Under the pieces are notes generated by a model. That model did no database searches. It was not told the DNA's origin and saw only the letters and a list, made by a program, of their open reading frames with translations. A DNA stretch of 58,369 nt from Bacteriovoracaceae bacterium (GTDB lineage: Bacteria > Bdellovibrionota > Bacteriovoracia > Bacteriovoracales > Bacteriovoracaceae). A program made the translations under genes and the position numbers. Shown piece after piece: positions 2,254 through 41,375 of the stretch. Within the stretch, counting starts at the first letter, position 1. Each line of letters begins with the position of its first letter. The stretch covers positions 1 through 58,369 of the forward strand of contig JARXAH010000066.1 of the NCBI GenBank assembly GCA_029865945.1, read 5' to 3'.

Positions 2254-3015
2254 CTATTGACCAAGTGCTGATTTAACAATAAGGGACACTTTCTGGATAT
2301 TATTTGATAATTTGAACGCTCTATCTCCCCTCTTTTCTAATTCCTTTAAAAATTCTTTGGCCGAATCAAGGGCCGTGCTCAATTCCTGCAAACTTTTTAT
2401 GGCGTCAGGATGTGCTGGTGATTCTAATTCGATAACATTGAGATAGCCTCTTGCTTTACTCTTAATAGGTAAAAGAAAATTATCTTGTTCTTCACCTGTA
2501 GTTGAGTCCATGGAAGTAATAAATTCGATCACAGGTATGAGTGATCTTACGTTCAGAACAAGGTTTGTTCCTGGCTGGCCACCTGGAAATTGGGGATCAT
2601 CAATAACTATGGCCGAAGCACAAAAGTTTTTGATTTTTACCCACTTGATATTACCTTGAAGTTCAATTTCTAATGGCCCAAAAGTATTGATTCTAGGAAA
2701 CGTGACAGACTTGCTTATGAAATGCCTTTTTGCCACATTAGTTATGTTTAGATCATAGACGAGTTGGCCTCCAATTTTAAATATTAAATGAGCAGGGCCG
2801 TTTTCTGCTTTCTTTACTTCGAAGGCAACAATCGCTTGAAGAAAATTAAAATCTGACACAACAAATTTTGATTCTCCATTTCGAAGCCTAAACATCCTTC
2901 CAGATTTGATTTCATCATTGTCATCAATTTCATTATCGACATCAACAGCAATTGAAACAGCAAAACTATTAGAAACGAACATTAGTGATAAAAAAATAAA
3001 TAATAATTTCTTCAT
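2254..3015 (-). CDS. secreted protein of unknown function
   Basis: With the start at 3015 the protein is 253 aa and opens with a clean signal peptide (MKKLLFIFLSLMFVSNSFA). The upstream ATG at 3042 would add nine residues and overlap the preceding gene, while the ATG at 3015 has an AAGGGG ribosome site 5 nt away, so 3015 is preferred. The mature protein is beta-rich with a DVDNEIDDNDE acidic start and a helical, Leu/Lys/Glu-rich C-terminal third. No family is recognised. It follows another secreted-protein gene by 10 bp, so the two form one leftward transcript starting at the palindromic promoter near 3560. Confidence 0.75.
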   Translation of the reverse strand: MKKLLFIFLSLMFVSNSFAVSIAVDVDNEIDDNDEIKSGRMFRLRNGESKFVVSDFNFLQAIVAFEVKKAENGPAHLIFKIGGQLVYDLNITNVAKRHFISKSVTFPRINTFGPLEIELQGNIKWVKIKNFCASAIVIDDPQFPGGQPGTNLVLNVRSLIPVIEFITSMDSTTGEEQDNFLLPIKSKARGYLNVIELESPAHPDAIKSLQELSTALDSAKEFLKELEKRGDRAFKLSNNIQKVSLIVKSALGQ

Positions 3016-3025
3016 ACATTTCCCC

Positions 3026-3472
3026 TTATTGGCATTTTTCAATGGCAGATGAATTGAGTGGTAGGCCTAAATCTTTTTTTATCCATAGTTGAATTCGCAA
3101 CATTTCATTAAGAAAGCCTTCGTACTCTTTAATGTTGATAAATTTATCAAAAACTCCTTGAGATTTTTGAATAAGAACTCCAAGATTTCGGATTTCACAT
3201 TGATACACTAAAAGACTAGTGTTCATGCCCATAATCGTTCTTAAAGTAAAAATTTGTTTTCTGATGGGATTAATTAATTGATCTTTTTCAGTCCCTGTTA
3301 CCCTATTTTCTCCAATGCGCTCCATGTATCCATCGAGCCATGCGAGGTTATCAGGATTAATGTACGGCTCATAAACCTGATAGTAGTTCACAGGTGGATT
3401 TCTGTAATAAGAATCCTGAGCCAAAATAGCATTACTAGACAAAATACTAATGAAGAAAAAAAATAATTTCAT
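3026..3472 (-). CDS. small secreted protein of unknown function
   Basis: This 148-aa protein has a signal peptide (FFFFISILSSNAILA, residues 4-18, cleavage probably after LAQ). The mature part begins with Tyr/Pro-rich sequence (YYRNPPVNYYQVYEPY) and continues into mainly helical sequence with two cysteines. No family is recognised. It is the first gene of a leftward two-gene unit. Its promoter region carries the same 22-bp palindrome found upstream of the HEFGH protein gene, at nearly the same distance from the start codon (89 versus 92 bp), so the two units are probably co-regulated. Confidence 0.72.
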   Translation of the reverse strand: MKLFFFFISILSSNAILAQDSYYRNPPVNYYQVYEPYINPDNLAWLDGYMERIGENRVTGTEKDQLINPIRKQIFTLRTIMGMNTSLLVYQCEIRNLGVLIQKSQGVFDKFINIKEYEGFLNEMLRIQLWIKKDLGLPLNSSAIEKCQ

Positions 3473-3539: not shown

Positions 3540-3582
3540 ATTATCTTTCTTAGCAAGATGTGTAGCAAAAAATTTTGCTACA
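3540..3582 (-). promoter_or_regulatory. promoter with palindromic operator, upstream of the 3472 gene
   Basis: A perfect 22-bp palindrome lies at 3561-3582 (arms TGTAGCAAAA and TTTTGCTACA around a central AA). On the minus strand its downstream arm contains the -35 box TTGCTA (3563-3568). A 17-bp spacer follows, then the -10 box GATAAT (3540-3545). Transcription would start near 3533, giving a leader of about 60 nt. A dimeric repressor bound here would cover the -35 box. An identical palindrome with the same geometry is at 5994-6015. Confidence 0.75.
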
Positions 3583-3649
3583 GGGGTGGTCGGGATTAGA
3601 TAAGTGAGATTAATACAAAAACTAGATAAAATTAAAAAATAAAAAAAAT

Positions 3650-4432
3650 TTAATCCAAGGAAAGTGGAAAGACCTGAATGGAGATATTATAAATAGATTT
3701 AGATTCGCAATCCTTATATAAATCTTTTAATTGTGTTCTGAAGTCGCTGATAAGTTTTCGAATAGATCCAATTTTTTCGGGGTGAAAAGGAATAGTCAAC
3801 GAACTATAATAACGCTGGTCAATTTTAGTTGTATCAAGTTTTCTTATGGCCAAATTTAAAATATCTTTGTGAGAATCTTTAAGCGATTGAGATTCAGTTT
3901 CTTTGGTTACTTTGATGTGTGGAATTTTTCTCACGTAACCTTGATTCAAATCTCTCTTGATAAATCCTGCCTTAACTAGGTCTTGGACGATGGTTTTTAC
4001 TTTTTCCTCACTCAACGAAAAGCGCATGGCAACATCTTTAACATTGAAGTAAAAATTCTTTGTTTCCATCAGCGAAAGAATTGCAAAATACTCCCATTGG
4101 GAAATAATGCGATATTCACTGTCATCAATGAAGAAATTTCCTAAAGTTTTTGATTCAATTTTTTCTTCGTCATTTTGAAATGGTAAGGATTCCTGATGAC
4201 TAATCTTAAATTTCTCTTGTTCCTCAGGAGATAGGGCAAGGTTTTCAATGGTATGATGTAATTTTTTTTTGGGAATTTTTCTTTTGCCCAGCAAAATTTG
4301 GCTAAGCGAAGAAGGATGAATCCCAAGATCTCTCCCAAAGGCCCTCAGTGAATAATTAACATTCAATGATTGCCTTTGAGAGAGAACTAAGTTCATTTTT
4401 TTTACGTAATAACAAAAGTCTTGTTGCTTCAT
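3650..4432 (-). CDS. TIGR02147/DUF4423-type transcriptional regulator
   Basis: This 260-aa protein shows the layout of the TIGR02147 family, which is abundant in Bdellovibrio-like bacteria and Fibrobacteres. An N-terminal helix-turn-helix reads RAFGRDLGIHPSSLSQILLG (about residues 27-46) and is followed by KRKIPKKK. A second winged-helix-like segment (EYFAILSLMETKNF, then MRFSLSEEKVKTIVQDLVKAGFI, about residues 113-160) matches DUF4423. Family members are presumed DNA-binding regulators; few have known targets. The gene follows the HEFGH protein gene by 30 bp and is likely in its operon. The palindrome found at the promoters of this unit and of the 3472 unit is its best candidate operator, by inference. 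Confidence 0.85.
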   Translation of the reverse strand: MKQQDFCYYVKKMNLVLSQRQSLNVNYSLRAFGRDLGIHPSSLSQILLGKRKIPKKKLHHTIENLALSPEEQEKFKISHQESLPFQNDEEKIESKTLGNFFIDDSEYRIISQWEYFAILSLMETKNFYFNVKDVAMRFSLSEEKVKTIVQDLVKAGFIKRDLNQGYVRKIPHIKVTKETESQSLKDSHKDILNLAIRKLDTTKIDQRYYSSLTIPFHPEKIGSIRKLISDFRTQLKDLYKDCESKSIYNISIQVFPLSLD

Positions 4433-4462
4433 GCGGCCATACTATTCTTTATTTTTTATTCT

Positions 4463-5902
4463 TTAATTTTTATTTTCATCTACTTGATCGAGATTAATAA
4501 GAAACGAAACTTTAAAACTTTTCGGTATCCAACTATCATTCTTATTGAAGCTTGTTAACTGAGTTCCACCACCAACACTAAAAACCATAAGGACGTTTCC
4601 TTGGTAGTAACTAATAGGTTGCACGTATTGCAATTGATAGTTAATGGTACCAATGCGATCCGCTAAATCATCAAACACTTTCTGGTAGCCAATACCTAAT
4701 AGTAGATACTTTTTAAGTTGGATGTTTAATAGCGCTTGTACATAGGGATCTCCATTGGTCTTTCTAACCAGCGGGATACTTGATGGATCATAGACTTTAA
4801 ACCATTGCAATCCGTCAGCGTAATATCGATAGGAATTGGAAGTAAAACCATTCGGGTATTTTCCAGTAAAATAATCATAACTACTGGCGCTAACTCTTAG
4901 ATCCTCCCAAGAGTTATTTCCAAACTTAACTCTGGTGGCAGAAACCATTTCATCTTTTCCAATAGGTTCTGGCTCATAATTTTGCTGTTGTACGGGAACA
5001 CGTTCTTGAGTACTGAGATATACTCCTCCACTAAACTGCATGTTCACTCGTTTAGTTAAACCAAAACCAATAAGAAATTCTGGTAATCCATAGCGTGGCC
5101 TTCCTTTATCAATGAGATTGACTGAGCCAAGTGACATTCCCATGTAATTATTCTTACCAATGTCATAACGATCAGAGACTGCATCTTCCTTACTTCTTTG
5201 TACTTGAAATTGGATAATTTGATTTTGTTGGAATACAAATTCCTCATTCACGGAAGCGAGAAAATCTTTATTAGCATTGGCAATACATTTTCCAATGGCA
5301 TCTAAAACATAGTGGATATTTCTGTACTTGCTAGAACCATGTAGTTCTTGAGGGTAGGACAAGTCAGCAACATGGCCGAACTCATGAATCATAAGTTCTG
5401 TTAAATAAGTGTTACTAATGATTTTACCATCTACGAAATAGCTTGGATTGACGTAAATTTTCTTAAGTGATTCATGGGTTATCATCGCCTCAGGTAAATT
5501 GGTCGCGGGATTGACGAAACTAATCCTATCCTCTGGGCCTGCCAAAATAAAATCTACCTTGGTATCGCTATAGAGAGCTGTAGCAAAATTGCGCCAATTG
5601 ACTTCATAAAATTTTATGACTTTAGCATTATCTGGATCATTTTTATCAAGGCCGCATCTTTCATAAGGCAAAAATTGTGCCGTTAATTCTATCAGTCGCC
5701 ATGATTGTAATCTTGCATGTTCTAAGAGAGCTTGAATTTGAAGATTAGCTCCGCCACCTCCTCCTTTTTCTCCACTGTCATTGCGATTATTATAGGCCTT
5801 ATCTAAGATGATTGCCTTTTTGTATGAATATTGTGCGTAAGAGGAAGACACCATGAGAAGAGTTGCAAATAAGTAAAAAAACAAATGTTTCAGCAGGTTC
5901 AT
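4463..5902 (-). CDS. secreted protein with a zincin-type HEFGH motif
   Basis: This 479-aa protein starts with a signal peptide (residues 1-23, ending SSSYAQ) followed by a Gly-rich linker (EKGGGGGAN). An HEFGH motif at His173-His177, in a helical context (YLTELMIHEFGHVADLSY), matches the HExxH zinc-binding signature of metallopeptidases, with Glu174 as the possible catalytic base; the third ligand is not obvious. The C-terminal 200 residues alternate hydrophobic and polar residues (LLGIGYQKVFDDL, then GNVLMVFSVGGG), a pattern seen in outer-membrane beta-strands, so it may be surface-anchored. It is the first gene of the palindrome-controlled unit that ends with the TIGR02147 regulator. Peptidase activity is inferred from the motif only. 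Confidence 0.7.
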   Translation of the reverse strand: MNLLKHLFFYLFATLLMVSSSYAQYSYKKAIILDKAYNNRNDSGEKGGGGGANLQIQALLEHARLQSWRLIELTAQFLPYERCGLDKNDPDNAKVIKFYEVNWRNFATALYSDTKVDFILAGPEDRISFVNPATNLPEAMITHESLKKIYVNPSYFVDGKIISNTYLTELMIHEFGHVADLSYPQELHGSSKYRNIHYVLDAIGKCIANANKDFLASVNEEFVFQQNQIIQFQVQRSKEDAVSDRYDIGKNNYMGMSLGSVNLIDKGRPRYGLPEFLIGFGLTKRVNMQFSGGVYLSTQERVPVQQQNYEPEPIGKDEMVSATRVKFGNNSWEDLRVSASSYDYFTGKYPNGFTSNSYRYYADGLQWFKVYDPSSIPLVRKTNGDPYVQALLNIQLKKYLLLGIGYQKVFDDLADRIGTINYQLQYVQPISYYQGNVLMVFSVGGGTQLTSFNKNDSWIPKSFKVSFLINLDQVDENKN

Positions 5903-5972
5903 ATTGATCTCCTAAAGTAAAATTGCAGATCGTTCATTTGAGATACGTTTATGATTCAAAAAATATGTTGTT

Positions 5973-6016
5973 GCTATACTTTGGAGCATAGAGTGTAGCA
6001 AAAAATTTTGCTACAC
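5973..6016 (-). promoter_or_regulatory. promoter with palindromic operator, upstream of the HEFGH/TIGR02147 unit
   Basis: The 22-bp palindrome of 3561-3582 recurs exactly at 5994-6015 and here extends to 24 bp (G5993 pairs C6016). On the minus strand the -35 box TTGCTA (5996-6001) sits inside it. A 17-bp spacer follows, then the -10 box TATAGC (5973-5978). The layout matches the other copy base for base in spacing, although the spacers differ in sequence. That points to a conserved operator rather than one recently duplicated block. Confidence 0.75.
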
Positions 6017-39059: not shown

Positions 39060-41375
39060 ATGAATTTTTCACGAAGGCCACTCACTCATCAAATATTTAT
39101 TTTGATTATTGGAGCTGCGAGTCCCTCCTTATCGTTAATGCATGCACAAGATGACGAAGGATTATCTTTGGAATCCTTAGAAGGAAGCGGGTCACTAGAA
39201 AGTTTAAAAGAAGAATTAAAAAAAAATCCAGAGGCCGCTTCAGGTACTCAAGTGGAAGCAAAACAAGAAGTTAACGAAAATACAAAAGACAATGAAGATT
39301 ATGAGGAAGCTTCTGATGATGAGTACAGCGATAAAGAAGAAGTGCCTAAGACCGAAAAGCCCAAGTTAGAGTGGGCAAAAAAAACGGAAGAAGCTAAGGA
39401 TGAAAAAATAGATGATGAGTACGGTGATGAATTTGAATCTGCGGAGGAAGGTGATAAACCTAAGGAATCTAAAGCTCCTACTCAAATTTTGCCGGCCAAA
39501 AATAAGTCAGAACCTAAAAATGAAAATGAGACGCCAAAAGATTCTACTGAAGGTGGAACTGATGTGGCCGTTTTTGAAGTGGGCGCAGAGGAGCAAGAAC
39601 TTTTAGATTTTGCTCAAACGGTTGGCCAACAAATTTCTAATACGGAGTGGAGTGAAATTACTAAAAATTCCAATACCACAACATACACCGTCCAAAAAAA
39701 TGATTGGTTGTTTAAGATTTCAAAAAAATTATTTGGAACTGGTTTTTATTACCCCAAAATTTGGTCACTCAATTCCTACATACCCAACCCGCATTTAATT
39801 GAACCAGGAATGCTTCTCACTTTTGAAACGGGCACGGGAGATGGTGCACCTTCCATCACGATCAGTCACGATGGAACGAAAGAAGATGGCGAGCATCCAT
39901 GGAATAAAGAAAAAGAAGAATTGGCCAAGCAAGGAATTTATATTAATTCCAGTGCAGATGATGAAAAAAGTTCTGCAATTAATAACGAATATAAAAAATA
40001 TGACCCATCCCCCTTAGATACTTCATCGCTCGCGCCCCCTGGTCAGTACGATGAATTTGGAATCGATAAAAATTCTTCTTATGTGAGGACATTTAAACAA
40101 GGCTATTTTTTAAATACCTTTATTTCTACCAACCAGATGCAAGACTTTGGATCGGTGGAATCTAAAATTGCAGAGGGAGTTTTTTTTACGTTGAGAGAAA
40201 CGGTCTACGTAAAACTTAATGAAGGAGTGACCGGAAATCCAGGCGATCAATTTTCCATCTATCGATTTGATGGAAAAGTGGAAGTGAAAGGTTCTGATCG
40301 CAGTGGAGATCGATACACCATCTTGGCGAATGTAAAATTAATTAGGCCCATGGAAGATAAGTGGGAAGCAATGATTACTGATATCTCTCAATCTGGAGTG
40401 CGGGGAGATCGGTTAACGGCGTACACACCAAAAATTCAAAAAATTTATCAAACATTTAATACCAAAATAGTGGAAGCTTTAATACTGCAAAGTTTTGACA
40501 CTGATATGACGATTGCCAATATAGGTTCCGTTGTTTATTTGGATAGGGGAAGGGCCGATGGGCTTGAGATTGGTAACGTTTTAGATGTCTACGATACCAA
40601 GGATCGCTCCAATGATAAGCCGATATCAGAGAAATTCACTTATCGCACAGGACAATTAAATATTATTTCTATTACCGATAATTTTTCTACAGCGATCGTT
40701 TCAAAAATTATACATTATTTTAAAATTGGTGATGTGGCGGTGACGAGAACCTCAGAAGATGAAGCGCAATCTAAGAATGTTAACAAAGTGGCAAAGAAAA
40801 ATTCTAAGCAAAACTTAGGTACCTATGATGTTGATGGGCTTGGGCCAAATGTGCTTTCGAAATCTAAGAGTGTTAAGTTGACGGAATCTGAGCTTGAAGA
40901 ATTAGATAGAGAGGCGAGAAAAAAACGTGTCTTAGATGATACCGAAAAAGATTTAAAGGATTTGGATGCGATGGAGCAAGAATTAGCTAGTGCAGAGCAA
41001 ACCTTAGATGAGAATGAAGCGAGCGATGAAGAAATGGATTTAGAAGCAGTTGAGTCCAAGAAAAAAGGTGAAAACTTTGGGACAAATTTAGAGGATCTCG
41101 AGAAGAATTATGGGAAAAAATATTTGGATGAAGATTTAAATCAAGTGGATAACCCGTATGGGATCACCCAATTTGATGTGGAAGAAGTCGATGAATTACT
41201 CAATCTCACGGACGCCGATTTTAACAGCGGCCGGGAAGTTCAAAGTGAATCGAAGGTGAGTACGGGATCGAGTGCTCCGAAGCGAAAAAATTTAAAGGCC
41301 AATCTCCATCAATCAAAATCAAAATCAAAATCAAAATCAAAAACAGAAAGAAAAACGGAAAAAAAATCATTTTGA
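39060..41375 (+). CDS. secreted LysM-domain protein with acidic and KS-repeat regions
   Basis: This 771-aa protein has a signal-like N-terminus (residues 10-30), then a long acidic, low-complexity segment (about residues 35-165). One LysM domain follows (about 205-255: TYTVQKNDWLFKISKKLFG, PNPHLIEPGMLL) for peptidoglycan binding. A beta-rich region (about 335-580) has two similar segments ending in short strands, and a Glu/Asp/Lys-rich C-terminal region ends in KSKSKSKSK. The last part is encoded by five perfect TCAAAA copies. Similar LysM proteins occur in Bdellovibrio-like genomes with no clear function. It follows the TPR lipoprotein gene by 3 bp. Confidence 0.8.
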   Translation: MNFSRRPLTHQIFILIIGAASPSLSLMHAQDDEGLSLESLEGSGSLESLKEELKKNPEAASGTQVEAKQEVNENTKDNEDYEEASDDEYSDKEEVPKTEKPKLEWAKKTEEAKDEKIDDEYGDEFESAEEGDKPKESKAPTQILPAKNKSEPKNENETPKDSTEGGTDVAVFEVGAEEQELLDFAQTVGQQISNTEWSEITKNSNTTTYTVQKNDWLFKISKKLFGTGFYYPKIWSLNSYIPNPHLIEPGMLLTFETGTGDGAPSITISHDGTKEDGEHPWNKEKEELAKQGIYINSSADDEKSSAINNEYKKYDPSPLDTSSLAPPGQYDEFGIDKNSSYVRTFKQGYFLNTFISTNQMQDFGSVESKIAEGVFFTLRETVYVKLNEGVTGNPGDQFSIYRFDGKVEVKGSDRSGDRYTILANVKLIRPMEDKWEAMITDISQSGVRGDRLTAYTPKIQKIYQTFNTKIVEALILQSFDTDMTIANIGSVVYLDRGRADGLEIGNVLDVYDTKDRSNDKPISEKFTYRTGQLNIISITDNFSTAIVSKIIHYFKIGDVAVTRTSEDEAQSKNVNKVAKKNSKQNLGTYDVDGLGPNVLSKSKSVKLTESELEELDREARKKRVLDDTEKDLKDLDAMEQELASAEQTLDENEASDEEMDLEAVESKKKGENFGTNLEDLEKNYGKKYLDEDLNQVDNPYGITQFDVEEVDELLNLTDADFNSGREVQSESKVSTGSSAPKRKNLKANLHQSKSKSKSKSKTERKTEKKSF
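41313..41342 (+). repeat. TCAAAA hexamer tandem repeat, five copies, inside the LysM gene
   Basis: Five perfect TCAAAA units run from 41313 to 41342 and encode alternating Lys-Ser near the C-terminus. A length change by whole units would keep the frame. Such an array can vary by replication slippage. Confidence 0.9.

Follow-up and report, generated by a model that had tools for sequence, protein, structure and literature searches.

Why does one and the same inverted repeat stand ahead of two leftward gene units, on either side of a regulator gene of the TIGR02147 family? The question arises in the window, the whole stretch of 58,369 nucleotides of Bacteriovoracaceae DNA that was analysed (38% GC), and concerns the following features.

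5994 to 6015, no strand: operator 1 (candidate), TGTAGCAAAAAATTTTGCTACA; its half-site is conserved at the promoters of related regulators
5973 to 6001, minus strand: putative, weak promoter TTGCTA-17-TATAGC with the -35 box within operator 1, read from the sequence
4463 to 5902, minus strand: exported protein carrying the motifs GEKGGGGG and IHEFGH; its gene opens the predicted regulator operon (open reading frame)
4292 to 4318, minus strand: H39 and the recognition helix of the regulator, codons 39 to 47 (HPSSLSQIL), from the structure model and the half-site association
3650 to 4432, minus strand: TIGR02147/DUF4423 regulator, 260 aa, after the HEFGH gene (profiles and structure model)
3561 to 3582, no strand: operator 2 (candidate), a 22-mer identical to operator 1 (sequence match)
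3540 to 3568, minus strand: putative promoter TTGCTA-17-GATAAT with the -35 box within operator 2; 9/12 consensus positions, not above chance
3026 to 3472, minus strand: 148-aa protein that starts with a signal-like segment; its gene opens the second unit (open reading frame)
2254 to 3015, minus strand: 253-aa protein, likewise with a signal-like segment at its N terminus; its gene follows that of the 148-aa protein in the second unit (open reading frame; a longer one starts at 3042)

The answer that we favor, with a probability of roughly 0.8, is that the TIGR02147 regulator whose gene lies between the two 22-bp repeats uses both of them as operators at two leftward promoters, likely for repression with negative autoregulation.

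The two copies are identical over 22 bp and are laid out as TGTAGCAAAA-AA-TTTTGCTACA, with complementary arms of 10 bp each. The initial annotation had called this palindrome perfect, which is not the case: 20 of the 22 positions are symmetric, and the central AA is asymmetric in both copies. At the 5994 copy the repeat extends to 24 bp (5993 to 6016). The claim that it occurs exactly twice, at these positions, was borne out and extends to the whole 3.08-Mb draft genome, where the 22-mer is found nowhere else even when two mismatches are allowed; the next best site is on a different contig and has three. Shuffled versions of the window contained no match even with 3 mismatches allowed, and arms of 10 bp separated by at most 8 bp occur at very few window sites, both 22-mers being among them. 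The distance to the first ATG is 92 bp for the 5994 copy and 89 bp for the 3561 copy, as annotated (about 90 bp). The flanks of the two copies resemble each other no more than at about chance level (identity 25% upstream, 35% downstream), so duplication of a block does not explain the pair, which also agrees with the annotation. Elsewhere in the window, at 41311 to 41340, lies a short tandem AATCAA repeat of period 6 with at least 3 copies.

The leftward gene layout described earlier was likewise confirmed, with operator 1 preceding the unit of the HEFGH protein and the regulator (5902 to 4463, then 4432 to 3650) and operator 2 preceding the unit of the 148-aa and 253-aa proteins (3472 to 3026, then 3015 to 2254). 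The HEFGH protein scores 17.4 bits against Peptidase_M43, under the Pfam cutoff of 23, so that the motif IHEFGH alone is seen, and profile searches matched the 148-aa and 253-aa proteins to no family. No recognisable homolog of the HEFGH protein was found in 116 relatives, and none of the 148-aa and 253-aa proteins in 129 genomes; direct phylogenetic footprinting of the locus is therefore impossible. Many alternating hydrophobic strands occur in the C-terminal half of the HEFGH protein, and this half might form an outer-membrane barrel, a matter on which the single-sequence structure model (pLDDT 30) is too poor to judge.

The regulator itself passes the curated cutoffs of both TIGR02147 (93.6 bits, cutoff 50, profile positions 18 to 270 of 272) and DUF4423 (126.4 bits, cutoff 30), in agreement with its first assignment. 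An AlphaFold2 model built from 43 sequences (pLDDT 86) shows an N-terminal helix-turn-helix (HTH), a winged helix, and then C-terminal helices. The N-terminal HTH matches HigA chains, both by profiles (query positions 18 to 63 and 20 to 63) and by the model (Z 8.1 to 8.4), and the central domain (about residues 100 to 177) has a MarR/ArsR fold with Z of 8 to 9.4 in the model and weak profile matches. The recognition helix comprises residues 40 to 47 in the model, with H39 directly before it. In the HigA alignment, H39 pairs with T34 of Proteus vulgaris HigA, S42 with T37, and Q45 with R40; T37 and R40 are the residues reported to be crucial for recognizing DNA (PMC6987408).

The operator prediction was examined at loci outside the window. 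Searching relatives for the whole 22-mer at 3 mismatches gave mostly noise, with a reversed control pattern also matching often. The half-site, TGTAGCA or TGCTACA, was sought within 150 bp upstream of 148 nonredundant TIGR02147 genes (144 assignable) and of 688 other genes on the same contigs as controls, with the window left out. Several results point the same way. First, the half-site stands upstream of 13 of the 26 genes whose proteins carry H39, compared to 1 of 118 non-H39 genes and 10 of 688 controls, and the idea of an autoregulatory operator thus survives outside the locus that suggested it. The corresponding Fisher values (1.3e-10 against other TIGR02147 genes and 5.5e-15 against controls; shuffle expectation 0.74) overstate independence, because 22 of the 26 H39 proteins belong to a single cluster (single linkage, 50%) and the events are fewer than the counts. 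Second, TGTAGCA ranked first of 97 in a de novo ranking of 7-mers (p 1.6e-15), and H39 ranked first among 78 residue tests (1.3e-10, next best 1.2e-4), P values to be read with the same reservation. Third, four H39 proteins lie outside the main cluster, three with the half-site and one with TGTCGCA-N6-TGCGACA. Finally, the H39 rule was noticed in the first 81 loci, from GCA-type half-sites, and then applied to all genes; among the loci fetched after that (L144 onwards), the half-site is present at 10 of 19 H39-type genes.

The closest regulators share 31 to 38% identity with the one in the window and come from other genera, the named contigs being Bacteriovoracaceae, Bdellovibrionales, and similar. 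They carry TGTAGCACCACCGTGCTACA, TGTAGCAAATGGTTGCTACA, and TTATGTAGCAGGGAACTGCTACATAA, centred 63 to 65 bp before the start codon. Exact TGTAGCA-N6-TGCTACA palindromes centred at -63 to -65 stand before three regulators in other genomes. Further related regulators have TGTTGCAAAAATCTTTGCAACA, GTTGCAAACCCTTGCAAC, or a lone TGCTACA half-site at the equivalent position. Across 129 genomes, the pattern TGTAGCA-N4-8-TGCTACA matched exactly at 12 sites, and its reversed control at 7. TIGR02147 operons account for five of the 12: the window contributes two, and G151, G161, and G172 contribute one apiece. The other seven comprise four inside open reading frames (G009, G116, G018, and G068:C132), one over the start of an open reading frame (G098), and two intergenic sites (G027:C26 and G068:C25). 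The G027:C26 site (2551 to 2572; L065/L049) is a fully symmetric 22-bp sequence, TGTAGCAAAATATTTTGCTACA, 95 bp before a 318-aa gene, and the only TIGR02147 match of G027 has TGTTGCA-N8-TGCAACA in its own promoter; the two sites may form another two-site regulon, with half-sites 8 bp apart. The half-sites are 8 bp apart in the window and in G027 versus 6 bp in most relatives, and the distance from operator to ATG is about 100 bp in the window versus about 64 bp in relatives.

Taken as a mechanism, these observations would mean that the regulator recognizes inverted TGTAGCA half-sites through its N-terminal HTH, probably as a dimer. It would act at the promoter of its own operon, in which the HEFGH exported protein and the regulator would be cotranscribed, and at the neighboring promoter of a presumed two-gene operon of exported proteins, so that three exported proteins and the regulator would be coordinated. 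Because the predicted operator sits before the regulator's own operon, the circuit would be autoregulatory, and we infer that negative autoregulation would be relieved by some inducing signal.

Control is probably by repression; a likely -35 box within the operator favors this over activation. Of the -35/-10 boxes assigned initially, the promoter with GATAAT (3568 to 3540) passes a consensus scan at 9/12, and the promoter with TATAGC (6001 to 5973) does not appear in the scan, since the final T of its -10 box is missing. Promoter-like matches in the region are no commoner than in shuffles (16 versus 14.5), so the box assignments in the window lack this support and are plausible but unsupported. 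The strongest competing reading, which we nevertheless consider unlikely, is that the regulator binds both sites and activates, with positive autoregulation and weak -35 boxes. It would suit close relatives, in which the palindrome centre at about -64 and a -10-like TGYTAWAAT abutting the ATG would place the operator upstream of a poor -35 box; the putative -35 box of the window lies inside the operator, as suits a repressor. TGYTAWAAT boxes are present in the last 20 bp before the ATG of many related regulators (L144 to L160), and their position abutting the start codon suggests leaderless or very-short-leader mRNAs from extended -10 promoters.

A different regulator could also be the binder, with the adjacent gene merely one target. 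TIGR02147 relatives were detected in 45 of 59 genomes, up to 18 in one relative and 12 in this bacterium's own genome, and any of the eleven paralogs of the window regulator could bind the 22-mer. One of them, G000:C87 (33506 to 33524; L174; L076, ~5505 to 5525), is also of the H39 type, and its half-sites are everted just before its start codon, so cross-talk between it and the window regulator is possible. The gene after it encodes a small protein that bears a signal and contains a GGSGGNGN stretch. However, the order and spacing of half-sites differ at this paralog (TGCTACA-N5-TGTAGCA) and at paralog C8 (TGTCGCA-N6-TGCGACA), and exact copies of the 22-mer flank the window regulator gene alone, which makes another binder improbable.

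More improbable still is that the repeat works as an RNA hairpin, either a terminator or a leader element, and not as a DNA operator. The transcribed strand of the two repeats does fold as a 9- to 10-bp hairpin (-12.4 and -16.4 kcal/mol over 61 nt), but any DNA palindrome would fold so, and relatives conserve the half-site, including lone half-sites unable to form a hairpin. The hairpin reading was rejected because no U tract follows the repeat and the repeat is absent from a terminator scan. Chance or a dispersed repeat element has a negligible probability: short AT-rich cores are common at 38% GC, but shuffling gives an expectation of zero, the genome holds two copies only, their flanks lack homology (on which grounds a dispersed repeat was rejected), and the element recurs across the family.

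The reading of the repeats as operators of the intervening regulator also fits a wider pattern. Of 148 TIGR02147 genes, 63 are preceded by an inverted repeat with 7-bp arms that match exactly, compared to 90 of 688 controls (12.8 in shuffles); the repeat centres at the TIGR02147 genes are concentrated at -75 to -45. The exact-arm count was used here; a looser score was probably contaminated by terminators in the controls. Examples with other sequences are GTGGGAACACTTTGTTCCCAC, TCGCATAACACTTTGTTATGCGA, and TGTTTCAGCCCCTGAAACA, and GGAACA/TGTTCC occurs at 31 of 148 TIGR02147 genes compared to 30 of 688 controls. A KGNGG-type gene directly follows 18 of 25 regulators of the H39 type, 13 of 88 other TIGR02147 genes, and 0 of 368 controls; most of the KGNGG-type partners listed have a signal-like N terminus, and several have an HE-containing motif. 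More broadly, a GDKGNGGD motif right behind the signal peptide, together with an HE-containing motif, marks a large and diverse exported set (L145 to L160 and L067 to L071), whose members mostly have no Pfam family and are genetically tied to TIGR02147 genes. The HEFGH protein of the window has the matching signature, GEKGGGGG and then IHEFGH, and yet lies before the regulator, not after it, so the window locus appears to be a rearranged member of a recurrent cassette. Membership in such a cassette, a TIGR02147 regulator with an exported GNGG-motif protein, is the best reading of the locus. It is a tentative extension, with odds a little short of even, that Bacteriovoracaceae and relatives hold many paralogous regulator/GNGG cassettes, each with a paralog-specific operator, a simple recognition-helix code, and near-insulated switching. 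Under that code, H39 would correspond to TGTAGCA and other helices to GGAACA or TGTTTCA. If this were true, at least 10 near-insulated switches for surface or secreted proteins would operate within one cell.

Among known systems, the closest are the HigA antitoxins of P. vulgaris (6chv/9chn) and Pseudomonas aeruginosa (PMC6987408), whose XRE-type HTH is of the same type as that of the window regulator. HigA binds palindromes in the promoter of its own operon, and P. aeruginosa HigA also binds an identical palindrome at the mvfR promoter (PMC6987408); a regulator that controls itself through a palindrome and has an identical site at a further promoter is therefore nothing new. The window regulator differs from HigA in three respects. 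First, it lacks a toxin partner: no HigB toxin gene was found adjoining it, its neighbors being larger exported proteins without a toxin-family match, and PADLOC gave no match for its partner; its predicted regulated partners are exported proteins. Second, it has an extra MarR/ArsR-like winged helix and a DUF4423 C terminus. Third, its predicted half-site is TGTAGCA and not TTAAC. The fold of its central domain is shared with the MarR/ArsR repressors CzrA, AdcR, and MepR; in contrast to these, the winged helix is one of two domains of DNA-binding type in the window regulator, and the operator association tracks residue H39 of the N-terminal HTH. The third comparison is with its own family, TIGR02147 (Fsuc_second)/DUF4423. 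A literature search for TIGR02147, PF14394, and DUF4423 found no operator for any member, consistent with the initial annotation that almost none are known; the literature does list one DUF4423 protein, Bd3700, as up-regulated during growth within prey. What would be new is therefore a predicted operator for this family together with a residue, H39, that predicts the half-site. The cassette suggests that exported proteins are under coordinated control in a lineage with predatory members, and the half-site, H39, and the two promoters make an anonymous regulator family testable by EMSA and reporter assays.
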